The notes under the pieces: generated by a model
Told to the model about the DNA's origin: nothing
Database searches by the model: none
The model's input: only the letters and a program-made list of their open reading frames with translations
Source of the DNA: a virus
Length of the DNA stretch: 64,000 nucleotides
Reading direction: 5' to 3' (one strand)
IMG/VR virus record: IMGVR_UViG_3300037189_012887
Span: 86,649-150,648 of that record
Position numbers and translations under genes: made by a program
Shown here: positions 29,616 through 55,052 of the stretch, piece after piece
Layout of the letters: each line of letters opens with the position of its first letter
Position numbering within the stretch: the first letter of the stretch is position 1

Positions 29616-29623
29616 TATAAATA
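29616..29623 (+). promoter_or_regulatory. Late promoter TATAAATA of homing endonuclease gene 1
   Basis: A perfect late -10 element whose last four bases belong to the 5' arm of the hairpin at 29620-29643. A transcript starting about 6-7 bases downstream would lack that arm. Confidence 0.75.
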
Positions 29624-29643
29624 CTCTCAAATATAGGAGTATT
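29620..29643 (+). promoter_or_regulatory. RBS-sequestering hairpin before homing endonuclease gene 1
   Basis: Arms AATACTC (29620-29626) and GAGTATT (29637-29643) pair perfectly over seven bases. The SD GGAG at 29636-29639 is mostly inside the 3' arm, nine bases before ATG 29648. Read-through transcripts should hide the SD; late transcripts from the overlapping promoter should not. Confidence 0.7.
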
Positions 29644-29647
29644 ATCT

Positions 29648-30370
29648 ATGGAAAGTTACGGTTTCATTTATCTTTGGTATGATAGAAAACATAAAAGATA
29701 TTATGTCGGATGTCATTGGGGAAGAGAAGATGATGGGTATGTATGTAGCTCATACTGGATGATGCAAGCTTATAAACGTAGACCTGAAGACTTCAAACGT
29801 CGTATGCTAAAAACAAACATCTTAGACAGAACATGTCTTTTAGATGAAGAGTATAAGTTTCTGTCTCTTATAAAAAAAGAAGAGTTAGGTAAAAAATACT
29901 ATAACATACAAAATAATCACTTCGGTCATTGGTCAAATGATCCAAATAATAGAGACAACGCTATAGAAAAGATGAGACAAAAGCTCATCGGCAAGAGTCT
30001 ATCAGAAGAACACAAAAAGAAGATCAGTAAAAGTAATAAAGGAAAGAAGAAAGCTCCATTTACTGAAGATCATCGAAAGAATATAAGTATATCAGCTATT
30101 GGAAGAGTTCCAACGGAAGAGACACTTAAGAAAAGATCTATAGCTATGAAAGGTGAAAATAACCCTAATTGGGGTAAGAAGTTTACTGAAGAGCATAGAC
30201 ATAAGTTGTCTATAGCTAGAAGAAAAAGAGTCATCAGCGAAGAGACCAAACAAAAGACCAGAGAATCTATGAAGAAAGTAGTTCCTAGACGTGGTCATAA
30301 ACTGACTGAAGAACACAAGGCCAAGATTAGTCTTGGAATGAAGAAGAACAAAGAAAGTCTGAGTAACTAA
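29648..30370 (+). CDS. GIY-YIG homing endonuclease 1 (240 aa)
   Basis: A 240-residue protein. Residues 4-60 form a GIY-YIG-type nuclease (YGFIYLWYDRKHKRYYVGCHWG with RRPEDFKRR after it). Residues ~110-235 hold four or more NUMOD3-type DNA-binding repeats (LSEEHKKKISKSNKGK, FTEEHRHKLSIARR, LTEEHKAKISLG). It is free-standing, between two Gly-rich fibre paralogues, and is much more AT-rich than its neighbours, as expected for a recently acquired mobile gene. Its stop abuts the next ATG with no gap. Such enzymes cut an allele lacking the insert and promote their own copying. Confidence 0.9.
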   Translation: MESYGFIYLWYDRKHKRYYVGCHWGREDDGYVCSSYWMMQAYKRRPEDFKRRMLKTNILDRTCLLDEEYKFLSLIKKEELGKKYYNIQNNHFGHWSNDPNNRDNAIEKMRQKLIGKSLSEEHKKKISKSNKGKKKAPFTEDHRKNISISAIGRVPTEETLKKRSIAMKGENNPNWGKKFTEEHRHKLSIARRKRVISEETKQKTRESMKKVVPRRGHKLTEEHKAKISLGMKKNKESLSN

Positions 30371-44683: not shown

Positions 44684-46087
44684 ATGTATCTAGCTGAGGA
44701 AATTCAGAATAAGTGGGCTCCAATCCTGGAGCACGCTGACCTAAATCCAATCAAGGATGCTCATCGCCGTTCGGTGACTGCAGTCATGCTTGAGAACACC
44801 GAGAAGGCTCTTCGCGAGTCGGCTGCTCACGGTGACTACCAGACTCTTACGGAAACGGCTTCCACTATTCCTGCCAACCTCATGGGCGCTTCAAGCTCAA
44901 CGGCTGGCGCTGGTGGCATCGACACCTTCGACCCAGTCCTTATCTCGCTCGTTCGTCGCGCAATGCCTAACCTCATGGCATACGACGTCTGCGGCGTTCA
45001 GCCAATGACTGGTCCTACCGGACTCATCTTCGCGATGCGTTCACGTTACGCAAACAGCACCAACTCACAGACCGGCGCAGAAACCTTCTACAACGAAGTC
45101 AACACCGCCTTCTCGTCAGTCACTGCTGGTAACAGCACCTTCGGTCAGGCAGCCGGCAACGGTCCTTCTGGCTCGATCCCAGGAAACAGCAACACCACTG
45201 CGATGACCAACGTCGGTAACGCAATCGGTGGTTCTGGCTTCTACAACGACGCGTTCGGCATGTCGACTGCACAGGGTGAAGCCCTCGGCGCCGACTCAAA
45301 CGCAGCGTTCGCTCAGATGGCATTCTCGATCGAGAAGGTCACCGTCACCGCTCAGACTCGCGCCCTCAAGGCAGAGTACACAATGGAACTCGCTCAGGAC
45401 CTCAAGGCAATTCACGGCCTTGACGCTGAGACCGAGCTCTCGAACATCCTCTCGGCTGAAATCCTTGCAGAAATCAACCGCGAAATCATCCGCTCAATCA
45501 ACATCTCGGGTGTTGTTGGTGCACAGGACAATACCACGACTGCTGGCGTGTTCGACCTCGACACCGACTCAAACGGTCGTTGGTCGGTTGAGAAGTTCAA
45601 GGGCCTCATGTTCCAGCTCGAGCGCGAAGCCAACCAGATTGCTAAGACGACACGTCGCGGCAAGGGTAACATCGTCATCTGCTCTTCAGACGTCGCGTCT
45701 GCTCTTCAGATGGCCGGTGTTCTCGACTACGCACCTGCTCTCAACAGCAACAACCTACAGGTTGATGATACCGGCAATACCTTCGCCGGCATTCTAAACG
45801 GCCGCCTCCGCGTCTACATCGACCCATATGCAACCGGTGGTAACTACCTCACCGTCGGCTACAAGGGTTCGAGCGCATTCGACGCAGGTCTCTTCTACTG
45901 CCCATACGTTCCACTCCAGATGGTTCGTGCAGTCGACCAGAGCTCTTTCCAGCCTAAGATTGGCTTCAAGACACGTTACGGCGTCGTCGCGAACCCATTC
46001 GCACAGGGCCTCACAAAGGGTAACGGTACGCTGAACGTCAACAGCAACTACTACTACCGCAAGGTGATTGTAAATAACTTGATGTAG
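44684..46087 (+). CDS. gp23: Major capsid protein gp23
   Basis: A 467-residue protein; T4 gp23 has 521. The region DPVLISLVRRAMPNLMAYDV, then CGVQPMTGPTGLIFAMR, is the hallmark of T4-type capsid proteins. A likely prohead-protease site is LTE at residues 55-57, which would remove the N-terminal delta domain; this is inferred from the (L/I)xE rule. Codon use is strongly biased, as expected for the most abundant protein. A terminator/hairpin that also controls the next gene follows at 46155. Confidence 0.97.
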   Translation: MYLAEEIQNKWAPILEHADLNPIKDAHRRSVTAVMLENTEKALRESAAHGDYQTLTETASTIPANLMGASSSTAGAGGIDTFDPVLISLVRRAMPNLMAYDVCGVQPMTGPTGLIFAMRSRYANSTNSQTGAETFYNEVNTAFSSVTAGNSTFGQAAGNGPSGSIPGNSNTTAMTNVGNAIGGSGFYNDAFGMSTAQGEALGADSNAAFAQMAFSIEKVTVTAQTRALKAEYTMELAQDLKAIHGLDAETELSNILSAEILAEINREIIRSINISGVVGAQDNTTTAGVFDLDTDSNGRWSVEKFKGLMFQLEREANQIAKTTRRGKGNIVICSSDVASALQMAGVLDYAPALNSNNLQVDDTGNTFAGILNGRLRVYIDPYATGGNYLTVGYKGSSAFDAGLFYCPYVPLQMVRAVDQSSFQPKIGFKTRYGVVANPFAQGLTKGNGTLNVNSNYYYRKVIVNNLM

Positions 46088-46149
46088 TGACATCTTTGTC
46101 ACAGTTCGTGACAAAGTTCTACATTAAGTCACAAGGTAAGCTTGTTAGA

Positions 46150-46157
46150 TATAAATA
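46150..46157 (+). promoter_or_regulatory. Late promoter TATAAATA of homing endonuclease gene 2
   Basis: A perfect late -10 element whose last three bases belong to the 5' arm of the 46155 hairpin. Transcripts starting here lack most of that arm. Confidence 0.75.
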
Positions 46158-46188
46158 CTCCCGAGGGCAACTTCGGGAGTATTTTTTT
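46155..46188 (+). terminator. gp23 terminator hairpin that also sequesters the RBS of homing endonuclease gene 2
   Basis: A perfect ten-pair stem (ATACTCCCGA with TCGGGAGTAT) and eight-base loop are followed by a T run up to 46188. This is an intrinsic terminator for the capsid transcript. The SD GGGAG (46175-46179) of the next gene is in the 3' arm, nine bases before ATG 46189, so the same hairpin blocks translation of read-through RNA. Confidence 0.85.
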
Positions 46189-46818
46189 ATGAAGCAAGAA
46201 AAGTATGGTTTCGTCTATATCTGGTATGATAAGAGAAATAAGATGTTCTATATTGGTTCTCACTGGGGAACCGAAGATGATGAGTATATTTGCTCATCTC
46301 CAAAGATGCTGAGAGCTTATGCACGTAGACCACAAGACTTTAAGAGACGAATAATTAAGAGAGGTTTTGACAATCGTCCTGAACTTCTTAAAGAAGAAGA
46401 TAGATGGTTAAAGATGATAGATCCATCTAAAACACTCAACAATAATAAACGTCTTCGCGATAGAGAAGAAAATGTTCGCTACTATAACATTAACTTAAGC
46501 GCATGGGAATCTTGGCATGCAGATAGCGAACTAAAGAAGACAGTAGGTCAGAAGATCTCAGCTTCTAAGAAAGGCAAGTCTACCGGTCCCTGCTCGGAGG
46601 AGACCAAGGCTAAGATAGGGAATGCCAATCGTGGTAGAAAGTTCACCGAGGAGCACCGACAGAAGCTCAGGGAAGCTAAGCTCGGAAGAACACTATCAGA
46701 AGAGCACAAGAGAAAGATTGGACAGTCAGGTATGGGTAGGGTCGGTGCATGGGCAGGTAAGACCTTTACGGAAGAGCACAGGGCTAATATCAGCAGAGGG
46801 ATGACTCTGAATAAATAA
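46189..46818 (+). CDS. GIY-YIG homing endonuclease 2 (209 aa)
   Basis: A 209-residue protein. The GIY-YIG domain (KYGFVYIWYDKRNKMFYIGSHWG, RRPQDFKRR) spans ~4-65, and NUMOD3-type repeats (CSEETKAKIGNANRGRKF, LSEEHKRKIGQSGMGR, FTEEHRANISRG) fill ~140-205. ATG 46189 is used: the upstream in-frame extension to 46087 would run through the terminator. It is close to endonuclease 1 at 29648. The first ~120 codons are AT-rich, while the repeat region is nearer to phage codon use. It is inserted directly downstream of the capsid gene. Confidence 0.9.
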   Translation: MKQEKYGFVYIWYDKRNKMFYIGSHWGTEDDEYICSSPKMLRAYARRPQDFKRRIIKRGFDNRPELLKEEDRWLKMIDPSKTLNNNKRLRDREENVRYYNINLSAWESWHADSELKKTVGQKISASKKGKSTGPCSEETKAKIGNANRGRKFTEEHRQKLREAKLGRTLSEEHKRKIGQSGMGRVGAWAGKTFTEEHRANISRGMTLNK

Positions 46819-46847: not shown

Positions 46848-46870
46848 GGGAGCTTCGGCTCCCCTTTTTT
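46848..46870 (+). terminator. Rho-independent terminator with UUCG loop
   Basis: GGGAGC (46848-46853) pairs with GCTCCC (46858-46863) around a TTCG tetraloop, followed by C and a run of six Ts. It ends transcripts of the gp23/homing-endonuclease unit. Confidence 0.9.
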
Positions 46871-46875
46871 ATTTG

Positions 46876-46883
46876 GATAAATA
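46876..46883 (+). promoter_or_regulatory. Candidate late promoter GATAAATA
   Basis: An ATAAATA core immediately after the terminator and 19 bases before ATG 46903, with SD GGAGG between. It is the last late promoter before the early-gene region. Confidence 0.55.
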
Positions 46884-46902: not shown

Positions 46903-47427
46903 ATGTCAGCTATAAAAGACCTACCGAGCAACCCGAATTTCCTATCGCCTCTTAACTTTACGTTCAAGGTCAGGCGAGCACCTCACCTGAACTTCTTTAT
47001 CCAAGAAGCAAAGATTCCGGGCATCGCTATCCAGCCTACTATGATCGCAAATCCACTTATCCGAGTTCCCTACTCAGGAGATCACATCGACTACGATCCC
47101 CTAGTGATCTCGTACAAGGTCGACGAGGACCTTCAGAACTACCTTGAGATCTACAACTGGCTCGTCGGTCTCGGTACTCCCGAGAGCCTACAGCAGTACG
47201 CTGATCTTGAAGCCCAGCCCTCCATGCTCGGTGGTGGTATCAAGTCAGACCTTGATCTGGTAATTTTGTCATCATCAAAGAATCCAAACTACTCGATAAC
47301 CTACGTGGACGCGTTCCCTATCTCTATCGACGGCTTGAGCTTCGACACCACCAGGACCGACGTGGACTACATATCCACTACCGTTACTTTCAAATATACC
47401 TCATATAAGATCAACAAATTGTATTGA
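46903..47427 (+). CDS. Tube-fold tail protein (gp48/gp54-like; annotated place of gp3)
   Basis: A 174-residue protein with the tail-tube fold pattern. IDYDPLVISYKVDEDLQNYLEIYNWL corresponds to T4 gp54 DPLVISFRMDSEACNYRAMQDWV, and FPISIDGLSFDTT...STTVTFKY corresponds to its IPISVSAPELSYD...TTFDVTFAY. In T4, gp48 and gp54 start the tube on the baseplate. In related phages the gene between gp23 and uvsY is often called gp3 (tube terminator). I see tube-initiator-like sequence, so the exact role is open. It has a late promoter, and its stop overlaps an early promoter. Confidence 0.65.
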   Translation: MSAIKDLPSNPNFLSPLNFTFKVRRAPHLNFFIQEAKIPGIAIQPTMIANPLIRVPYSGDHIDYDPLVISYKVDEDLQNYLEIYNWLVGLGTPESLQQYADLEAQPSMLGGGIKSDLDLVILSSSKNPNYSITYVDAFPISIDGLSFDTTRTDVDYISTTVTFKYTSYKINKLY

Positions 47428-47451
47428 CAAAATCTCCTACTGGTGTATAAT
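47424..47451 (+). promoter_or_regulatory. Early sigma-70-type promoter before uvsY
   Basis: TTGACA (47424) - 16 bases - TATAAT (47446-47451). The -35 box overlaps the stop codon of the tail gene. It marks the switch from late structural to early DNA-metabolism genes. Confidence 0.8.
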
Positions 47452-47922: not shown

Positions 47923-49377
47923 ATGAGTGAAGTAGTCAGGATCGAGTACCACGACGAGACGCACATGAAGGTAGTGTGCGATCCGGGAGTGGCCTATGAG
48001 CTCAACGACTACTTCACCTTCGACGTCCCCGGCGCCAAGTTCATGCCGGCCTACAGGAACAAGATGTGGGACGGCAAGATCCGCCTGTTCAACGTCATGT
48101 CCTGCCTGCTCTACGTGGGACTGATCGGCTACGTAGAGAAGTTCTGCAGCGACAGGGACTACGAGTTCGAGCTCGACGCTCCTCAGTACGAGCCCGAGGA
48201 GTTCTCCCTCAAGGAGGCAAACGACTTCATAGAGAAGCTCGGCCCCAAGATGAAGCCGAGGGACTACCAGATGGACGCGTTCGTCCACGCGGTCAGGAGC
48301 AAGAGAGCGCTGCTGCTCTCACCCACCGCCTCCGGCAAGTCGTTCATCATCTACCTGATCATGAGGTACTACAGCGCAAAGACCCTCATCATCGTGCCGA
48401 CTACCTCTCTCGTCAGCCAGCTCGCCAGCGACTTCGCCGACTACGGCTTCGACTCCGACGCTAACGTCCATCGCATCTTCGGTGGACAGGATAAGCAGAC
48501 AGACAGGCCGGTCACCATCTCGACTTGGCAGAGCATATACAAGCTTCCTAAGAGCTACTTCGACCAGTTCGACGTCGTGATCGGAGACGAGGCCCACCTG
48601 TTCAAGGCCAAGTCGATGCAGTCGATCATGTCGAAGCTCACAGGCTGCGCCTTCAGGTTCGGATTCACGGGCACGCTCGACGGCACCCAGACCCACAAGC
48701 TCGTCCTGGAGGGTCTGTTCGGTCCGGTCAGGAAGGTCACCACCACCGCCGAGCTTATCGAGAAGGGAACCATCGCCGAGCTTACTATCAAGGCGATAGT
48801 CCTGAAGTACCCCGACGACATCAGGAAGCTGATGACCAAGGCCGACTACAAGAACGAGATGGACTACCTAGTCAACTGTCGAGCGAGAAACAAGTTCATC
48901 AGGAATCTGGTCTTATCGCTGGAGGGTAACACTCTCCTCTTATTCCAGCTTGTTGACAAACACGGAAAAGTATTGTATAATGACATCAAGAATGAAGCTG
49001 GTGATAGACCGGTCTTCTTCGTTTCGGGAGCAGTAGATGCTGAGGCGCGTGAGGAAATTCGTAGAATCGTTGAGTCTGAGAAGTCCGCGATTGTGGTTGC
49101 TAGCTACGGTACTTTTAGTACCGGAGTTAATATTCGTAATCTGCATAACGTTGTATTCGCTAGTCCTTCGAAGTCAAGGGTGAGAAACCTCCAGTCCATC
49201 GGCCGCGGGCTTCGTAAGTCTGAGACCAAGTCGTCTGTCACACTGTACGACATCGCCGACGACCTGACGTGGAAGAGTCGCAAGAACTTCACACTGCTCC
49301 ACTTCGTCGAGCGCGTAAAGATCTACAATGAAGAGAAGTTTAACTACAAGGTGTATAGCGTGGGAATTAAAGCATGA
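47923..49377 (+). CDS. uvsW: UvsW-type DNA/RNA helicase
   Basis: A 484-residue SF2 helicase; T4 UvsW has 503. Motif I SPTASGKS is at 133-140, the DEAH box GDEAHLF at ~213, motif III GFTGTL at ~235 and motif VI QSIGRGLRKSE at ~425. The N-terminal ~90 residues are the UvsW substrate-binding domain. It remodels recombination and replication intermediates and ends R-loop-primed replication. The codon use between about 48930 and 49180 shifts to AT-rich codons where an internal early promoter lies. The stop overlaps the gp55 start (ATGA). Confidence 0.95.
   Translation: MSEVVRIEYHDETHMKVVCDPGVAYELNDYFTFDVPGAKFMPAYRNKMWDGKIRLFNVMSCLLYVGLIGYVEKFCSDRDYEFELDAPQYEPEEFSLKEANDFIEKLGPKMKPRDYQMDAFVHAVRSKRALLLSPTASGKSFIIYLIMRYYSAKTLIIVPTTSLVSQLASDFADYGFDSDANVHRIFGGQDKQTDRPVTISTWQSIYKLPKSYFDQFDVVIGDEAHLFKAKSMQSIMSKLTGCAFRFGFTGTLDGTQTHKLVLEGLFGPVRKVTTTAELIEKGTIAELTIKAIVLKYPDDIRKLMTKADYKNEMDYLVNCRARNKFIRNLVLSLEGNTLLLFQLVDKHGKVLYNDIKNEAGDRPVFFVSGAVDAEAREEIRRIVESEKSAIVVASYGTFSTGVNIRNLHNVVFASPSKSRVRNLQSIGRGLRKSETKSSVTLYDIADDLTWKSRKNFTLLHFVERVKIYNEEKFNYKVYSVGIKA
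48953..48981 (+). promoter_or_regulatory. Consensus early promoter inside uvsW, serving gp55
   Basis: A perfect TTGACA-N17-TATAAT (48953-48958, 48976-48981) inside the uvsW coding sequence, about 390 bases before gp55. Confidence 0.8.
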
Positions 49378-49955
49378 TATCGAAGCCTAGGGCCAAGAGG
49401 CACTACGTCAACAATCGAGACTTCTTCGAGGCCATGGTCAAGTACAAGGCCGACTGCAAGGTAGCAGACGAGGCGGGCAAGGGTAAGCCGCAGGTGCCGA
49501 GGTACGTCGGAGAGTGTCTCATGATGATCTGTGAGAAGCTGTCTACGAAGCCGAACTTCATGAGCTACTCGTACCGCGACGAGATGATCGCCGACGGCAT
49601 CGAGAACTGTCTGGCGTCGGTCGACAACTTCAACCCCGACAGGTCCACCAACCCGTTCGCGTACTTTACTCAGATCGCTTGGAACGCCTTCATTCGAAGG
49701 ATCACCAAGGAGAAGAAGCAGTCCTATATCAAGCACAAGAACTTCGAGAACTCCGGCATCATGGACGAGCTGTGGGACTCGGGCGTAGACGGCGGGTCTC
49801 ACTCGATCCAGTCTAAGCACAACCACTACTCGGACGACATCATTCGAAACTTTGAGTCAAAGCTGACTAAGAGTAAGAAGCGTACTAAGACCGGTATTGA
49901 GAAGTTCCTGGAACCAACTGAAGAGCTCGTAAATGAAGATAGCGCTGATATTTGA
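49374..49955 (+). CDS. gp55: Late-transcription sigma factor gp55
   Basis: A 193-residue protein; T4 gp55 has 185. The core YRDEMIADGIENCLASVDNFNPDRSTNPFAYFTQIAWNAFIRRI is a reduced sigma region 2, as in gp55. It directs host RNA polymerase to ATAAATA-type late promoters with the help of the sliding clamp (63386, at the end of this window). Its presence validates the late promoters listed here. ATG overlaps the uvsW stop. Confidence 0.95.
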   Translation: MISKPRAKRHYVNNRDFFEAMVKYKADCKVADEAGKGKPQVPRYVGECLMMICEKLSTKPNFMSYSYRDEMIADGIENCLASVDNFNPDRSTNPFAYFTQIAWNAFIRRITKEKKQSYIKHKNFENSGIMDELWDSGVDGGSHSIQSKHNHYSDDIIRNFESKLTKSKKRTKTGIEKFLEPTEELVNEDSADI

Positions 49956-54450: not shown

Positions 54451-54458
54451 TATAAATA
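54451..54458 (+). promoter_or_regulatory. Late promoter TATAAATA of homing endonuclease gene 3
   Basis: A perfect late -10 element, overlapping the 5' arm of the 54455 hairpin and standing alone in a region otherwise controlled by early promoters. Confidence 0.75.
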
Positions 54459-54476
54459 CTTCTATCAGGAGGTATT
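54455..54476 (+). promoter_or_regulatory. RBS-sequestering hairpin before homing endonuclease gene 3
   Basis: AATACTTC (54455-54462) pairs with GAGGTATT (54469-54476), eight pairs with one G-U, loop of six. The SD AGGAGG (54467-54472) is largely in the 3' arm, seven bases before the GTG start. Confidence 0.7.
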
Positions 54477-54479
54477 CAT

Positions 54480-55052
54480 GTGTTTGGATTTGTTTACATA
54501 TGGTATGATAAAAAACATACAAGATATTATATTGGTTCTCATAAAGGTCATTTAGATGATGGATATATCTCAAGTTCAACTTGGATGAAAAATGCTTATA
54601 AGAGACGACCATTAGACTTTAGAAGAAAGCTCTTATCAATTATTATGACTAATAAAGAAGATCTTTTACAAGAAGAACAAAAATGGCTTAACTTTATAAA
54701 AGATGATGAGCTTGGAAAGAAATACTATAATCTAAAGAAAAAAGCTGCAGGTGGTTTTTCAAAGTGTGCTATTCAAAAAAGTATAGAATCAAGAAAAGGA
54801 AAATCTTTACCATTAGAATGGAAACAAAATCAAAGTAAAGCATTGAAAGATAAGTCTTGGACAGATAAACGAAGAGAATCTCAAGTTGGATCTTACACAA
54901 AAAGATTGACATATGAACACAATGGTGTTATAATTGGAAATATAGATCAAGCTATCGAGTATTCCGGAAAATCTAGAAAAACTATTGATAGATGGTGCAC
55001 TGAAAATTCTAGTTATTCCAAAAAAGAATGGAGAAAATATTATGAGTCGTGA
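54480..55052 (+). CDS. GIY-YIG homing endonuclease 3 (190 aa), GTG start
   Basis: A 190-residue protein. The nuclease domain (FGFVYIWYDKKHTRYYIGSHKGH, RRPLDFRRK) closely resembles endonucleases 1 and 2. The C-terminus differs: after short NUMOD-like text it ends with NIDQAIEYSGKSRKTIDRWC, a NUMOD1/helix-turn-helix-like DNA-binding part. The reading frame starts at GTG 54480. An ATG two bases earlier (54478) is out of frame and would give only about 25 codons. The DNA is AT-rich. Its 3' end overlaps the MazG-like start by 11 bases. Confidence 0.85.
   Translation: MFGFVYIWYDKKHTRYYIGSHKGHLDDGYISSSTWMKNAYKRRPLDFRRKLLSIIMTNKEDLLQEEQKWLNFIKDDELGKKYYNLKKKAAGGFSKCAIQKSIESRKGKSLPLEWKQNQSKALKDKSWTDKRRESQVGSYTKRLTYEHNGVIIGNIDQAIEYSGKSRKTIDRWCTENSSYSKKEWRKYYES

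Follow-up and report, generated by a model that had tools for sequence, protein, structure and literature searches.

Hairpins that sequester a ribosome-binding site and carry a late promoter in their 5' arm are established for the homing endonuclease gene I-TevI and have been described for I-TevII, I-TevIII, segB and Aeh1 mobE (PMC2988022). In this I-TevI/segB/mobE class the Shine-Dalgarno sequence (SD) is buried in read-through RNA, late RNA without the 5' arm can be translated, and the gene that follows encodes a homing endonuclease. Leader hairpins also bury the SD or the AUG of the T4 genes e, soc and 49, and in gene e the 5' part of the structure houses the late promoters and is missing from late RNA (PMC3014915); these are phage genes whose hairpins control early read-through, and no terminator role is described for them in the part of that source drawn on here. 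Around the capsid gene itself, T4 and five relatives have a predicted terminator after gene 23, and T4 late promoters have their motif at -13 to -6 (PMC1524935). The T4 gene segD, which lies between genes 23 and 24, encodes a GIY-YIG-type endonuclease and adjoins gene 23 in the antisense orientation, with no identified promoter (PMC2988022).

The window analysed here, the final 64 kb of a virus record of 150,648 bases, combines several of these features on one short segment. The gene of the major capsid protein gp23 (44684..46087, + strand, 467 aa, stop TAG at 46085-46087; Pfam Gp23, E 4e-150; phrog_138) is followed on the same strand by a homing endonuclease gene (46189..46818, 209 aa from the ATG at 46189) and by a tail-tube-like gene (46903..47427; phrog_45, E 9e-36), and a gene for a gp55-like late sigma factor lies at 49374-49955 (phrog_234, E 1e-56). 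The endonuclease matches the profiles phrog_314, homing endonuclease (E 3e-23), and NUMOD3 (E 5e-12), and its start agrees with that of its relatives. It contains the motif GFVYIW...FYIG; the Pfam GIY-YIG profile is not reached by this protein and is matched weakly (E 0.04) by a paralogue at 54480, and the phiM12 homologue carries the annotation GIY-YIG_SegABCDEFG. A search of solved structures with the endonuclease gave no useful relative. A 243-aa form, which would start at an in-frame GTG at 46087 overlapping the gp23 stop and would be read through the hairpin described below, is unlikely because relatives begin near the GF[VI]Y motif, usually without that long open frame, and the frame is probably due to chance. 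Two further sequences in the window match the sigma-70 promoter perfectly (TTGACA, 16 or 17 nt, TATAAT), one at 47424-47451 upstream of uvsY and the other at 48953-48981 within uvsW.

The element between the capsid and the endonuclease genes, 46150-46191, reads TATAAATACTCCCGAGGGCAACTTCGGGAGTATTTTTTTATG. Its core is a 14-bp hairpin (46153..46184, + strand), a predicted terminator stem and lock on the ribosome-binding site, made of the 5' arm AAATACTCCCGAGG (46153-46166), the loop GCAA (46167-46170) and the 3' arm CTTCGGGAGTATTT (46171-46184), with one G-U and six G-C among the 14 pairs. The hairpin alone is predicted to fold with -21.4 kcal/mol (z = -7.6, none of 200 shuffles being as stable), its 91-nt context has a folding z of -5.5, and no other stem in the window reaches 12 contiguous Watson-Crick pairs. 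The element is beyond chance. A sequence-only reading of this DNA had proposed that hairpin and T run form an intrinsic terminator of the capsid gene whose 3' arm contains the SD, whose T run abuts the endonuclease ATG and whose 5' arm is overlapped by a promoter motif, and each of these features is present. The stem is slightly longer than the 46155-46182 given there, and, with its GC-containing pairs, 4-nt loop and seven T directly after it (46182..46188, three of them within the stem, adjoining the ATG at 46189-46191), it has the sequence features of an intrinsic terminator. The whole SD, GGGAG (46175..46179), is part of the 3' arm, and 9 nt separate it from the ATG. The motif TATAAATA (46150..46157, + strand), which shares five bases with the 5' arm, is plausibly a T4-type late promoter, since the window encodes a gp55-like sigma factor and [N]ATAAATA is found ahead of other virion genes in it; TATAAATA itself occurs seven times in the window against 0.9 expected. 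The proposal that three functions share the same bases thus holds as architecture, which recurs in relatives, and as prediction where function is concerned. Directly 3' of the gp23 stop there is also a 9-bp hairpin without a T run, CTTTGTCAC-AGTTC-GTGACAAAG (46094..46116, + strand), and a similar one stands behind gp23 in locus L001; many relatives have a small hairpin in this position, between the gp23 stop and the terminator.

That reading did not go on to the most important implication of the overlap. With TATAAATA at -13 to -6, late RNA should begin at 46163, within the 5' arm, according to the T4 rule (PMC1524935), which would leave 4 of the 14 bases of this arm in the transcript; with so short a remnant, neither lock nor terminator should affect this RNA. 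Folding predictions agree with this. In RNA initiated upstream GGGAG is predicted to be paired, as in the I-TevI/segB/mobE class, and opening it would cost about 18 kcal/mol, compared with 1.4 kcal/mol if the RNA starts at 46163, 5.6 if it starts at 46161 and 8.6 if at 46160. RNA from 46163 would lack the ten outermost bases of the 5' arm and retain a small GAGG-GCAA-CUUC stem (-3.7 kcal/mol), so that the late RNA without the 5' arm that is known from the same class is also predicted here.

The element is best explained, with a probability of roughly 0.7 in our estimate, as the 5' control cassette of a mobile homing endonuclease gene which was inserted behind gp23 and which sorts RNA by its start point. 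RNA from the gp23 promoters would hold the whole hairpin and mostly end at the T run, and the remainder that reads through would carry a buried SD; being ended or blocked in this way, capsid RNA would leave the endonuclease shielded from heavy capsid transcription. RNA from the late promoter of the cassette, starting at 46163, would have neither terminator nor lock, and from it the endonuclease would be translated. The start and end points of these RNAs and the degree of termination and repression are what we infer; what the sequences show is the anatomy, its repeated association with the endonuclease family at different sites, the covariation, the enrichment of terminator forms behind gp23 and the second terminator downstream of the endonuclease.

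The predicted lock itself is of the kind already known from T4. The hairpin of the window differs from the I-TevI/segB/mobE class in being also a predicted intrinsic terminator (GC-rich stem, tetraloop, T run), in standing behind the major capsid gene and in belonging to a mobile family whose form depends on the site; as gp23 is itself a late gene, the classical early-versus-late purpose of such locks does not directly apply. It shares with T4 gene 23 a predicted intrinsic terminator directly behind the capsid gene, but in relatives of the window that lack the endonuclease the terminator is followed by the late promoter, whereas here the promoter lies inside the hairpin. Unlike segD, the endonuclease gene of the window is in the sense orientation, has its own putative late promoter and is followed by the tail-tube-like gene. 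The gene seg43 of Aeromonas phage 25 also has a strong hairpin just upstream of its ribosome-binding site (PMC2988022); we do not place it in the same class, since it has no TAAATA and no T run and its SD is not in the hairpin. A limited literature search found no account of one hairpin behind a capsid gene that acts as terminator and lock with a promoter inside.

Relatives of the endonuclease carry similar elements at other places. Two sister cassettes lie in the window on the + strand, each consisting of TATAAATA, a lock hairpin without a T run and an endonuclease paralogue (29616..30370 with the gene at 29648-30370, and 54451..55052 with the gene at 54480-55052, which has a GTG start). Among cultured phages, Sinorhizobium phage phiM12, phiN3, phiM19 and Rhizobium phage RHph_I1_18 have a promoter-overlapping hairpin before endonuclease relatives at unrelated sites. 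Loci were gathered by similarity and by pattern, with start codons and SDs picked by rule, and all counts refer to the matches listed. The family sample consists of 94 distinct upstream regions of endonuclease relatives among the listed matches in viral contigs and phage records, and 77 of these 94 have TAAATA at most 70 nt from the start. Promoter-region bases pair with a downstream segment at six or more of seven positions in 37 of 57 cases (mean 8.5 and maximum 17 in 300 shuffles). In a trimmed alignment of 11 elements both sides have changed in 8 of 14 pairs, and covariation is 0.448 versus 0.198 when shuffled (none of 500 as high) and at most 0.117 in slid versions; such compensatory changes support pairing at the RNA level. 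Some loci (L133, L122, L139, L172, L175 and L161) have tandem hairpins upstream of the endonuclease, the first containing the promoter and the second the SD, and in L133 the 3' arm of the first could pair with the 5' arm of the second in an alternative structure.

The form of the element depends on where it stands. Among the matches listed, 39 of the 94 family copies lie directly behind gp23, and terminator-like hairpins are found in 32 of these 39 versus 4 of the 55 copies elsewhere (Fisher p 4e-14, a value that ignores relatedness), which we interpret as probable selection behind gp23 for the terminator form. TAAATA is in the 5' arm in 25 of the 32, and hairpins that, like that of the window, unite SD, T run and promoter are found in L113, L129, L135, L146, L167, L196 and others. 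The SD is outside the hairpin in over half of the terminator forms at gp23 (L162, L102 and L110 are examples), so lock and terminator are separable. The 39 copies form 28 clusters at 80% identity, many of the sequences being related, and the endonuclease tree, with only five supported branches and one usable independent pair, does not demonstrate a repeated origin of the link between gp23 and the terminator.

The frequent position of the SD outside the hairpin is what would be expected if the element were a terminator only, placed so close to a start codon that an SD within its 3' arm and an overlap with the promoter follow as side effects. We consider this unlikely, because copies elsewhere hold promoter and SD in one hairpin with no T run, and because a drop in the predicted cost of SD opening of at least 3 kcal/mol is far commoner in endonuclease genes than in other late-promoter genes (46 of 68 versus 16 of 165 among the matches listed, counting genes that have TAAATA no more than 60 nt away and a value for both energies; the other late-promoter genes are from the gp23 loci and the window, and shared ancestry remains in the comparison). 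A palindrome on a promoter could also be a DNA operator for autorepression of the late promoter by the endonuclease, the RNA hairpin being incidental, and there is a precedent in I-TevI, which binds at an operator that overlaps the late promoter of its own gene (PMC2988022). As the sole explanation this appears improbable: the stem differs in sequence between copies without losing its pairing, and at inner stem positions G-T exceeds A-C mismatches (15 versus 5 overall, 11 versus 0 behind gp23), an excess that fits RNA pairing and not DNA symmetry. The two roles are not mutually exclusive, and an operator may coexist with the RNA hairpin.

The sequence-only reading had the endonuclease gene exploit a capsid terminator that was already in place, adopting it as a lock. 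Relatives do always carry a terminator behind gp23: among the loci listed, all 67 without a GIY-YIG gene have their own within 150 nt of gp23, and in 56 of the 67 TAAATA comes after it. The window, however, keeps a pair of this older type downstream of the endonuclease, namely a second terminator (GGGAGC TTCG GCTCCC and a T run, 46848..46870, + strand), the positional counterpart of the gp23 terminator in endonuclease-free relatives, followed by the late promoter GATAAATA of the tail-tube-like gene (46876..46883, + strand). Moreover, the hairpin with promoter and lock goes with the endonuclease family at other loci; adoption is therefore very unlikely in our view. Given the similar hairpins at unrelated sites and the counterpart at 46848, the element most likely arrived with the endonuclease, whose gene would have been inserted between gp23 and the older gp23 terminator; a possible variant is that an existing terminator recombined with an incoming lock. 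A terminator is present downstream of the endonuclease in 25 of the 37 endonuclease-bearing gp23 loci among those listed. None was found there in some others (for instance L196, L197 and L162), in which the cassette may consequently be the sole capsid terminator. TAAATA overlaps the terminator in just one of the 67 loci without a GIY-YIG gene, L037 (4353-5868), where CATAAATA abuts the 5' arm and the long gene behind gp23 is a different one that probably encodes a mobile endonuclease of another type; a promoter within a terminator may thus be used by unrelated mobile genes as well.

A scan for the pattern TAAATACTCC-N(4-20)-GGAGTATTT gave at least 67 distinct sites, at least 17 of them behind gp23, and most of the listed matches at gp23 precede a member of the endonuclease family. 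Behind gp23 the pattern is also found with truncated genes (L326, L327) and with just short frames between it and the tail-tube gene (L318, L340). In L295, just after gp23, no endonuclease is present and the element directly adjoins the start codon of the tail-tube-like gene, possibly a case of a cassette captured by a structural gene. Outside gp23 the palindrome also occurs ahead of other GIY-YIG genes and of several other late genes, and is thus not exclusive to the endonuclease family; lock-like TAAATACTCC...GGAGTATTT palindromes precede genes that do not look like endonucleases in L274, L277, L280, L282, L285, L304, L309, L339 and L347.

Relative to the T4 hairpins, three things are new here: a predicted terminator built into the same structure, the association with the capsid site, and an apparent persistence once the endonuclease has been lost (L295). 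More tentatively, and at somewhat less than even odds, the mobile gene may carry a convertible insulator, which is a lock at most sites and a terminator, often together with a lock, behind the capsid gene, where it would replace the capsid terminator, persist after the endonuclease has decayed (L318, L326, L327, L340) and become a tail-tube leader (L295), the fate of each RNA being set by its start site alone without a regulatory protein.

Mobile endonucleases need to be expressed without disturbing the genes around their insertion site, and the cassette suggests a compact solution, in which one hairpin ends or silences the RNA of the neighbour and is broken by the promoter of the element itself. 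If true, this would explain how endonuclease genes come to stand directly behind the most heavily expressed gene of T4-type phages, and the loci collected here would serve both as a dataset of natural variants, some uniting lock and terminator and others keeping the two apart, and as a source of a small protein-free insulator part. The arrangement in L295 would, in addition, represent a route by which the control DNA of a mobile element may become the phage's own.
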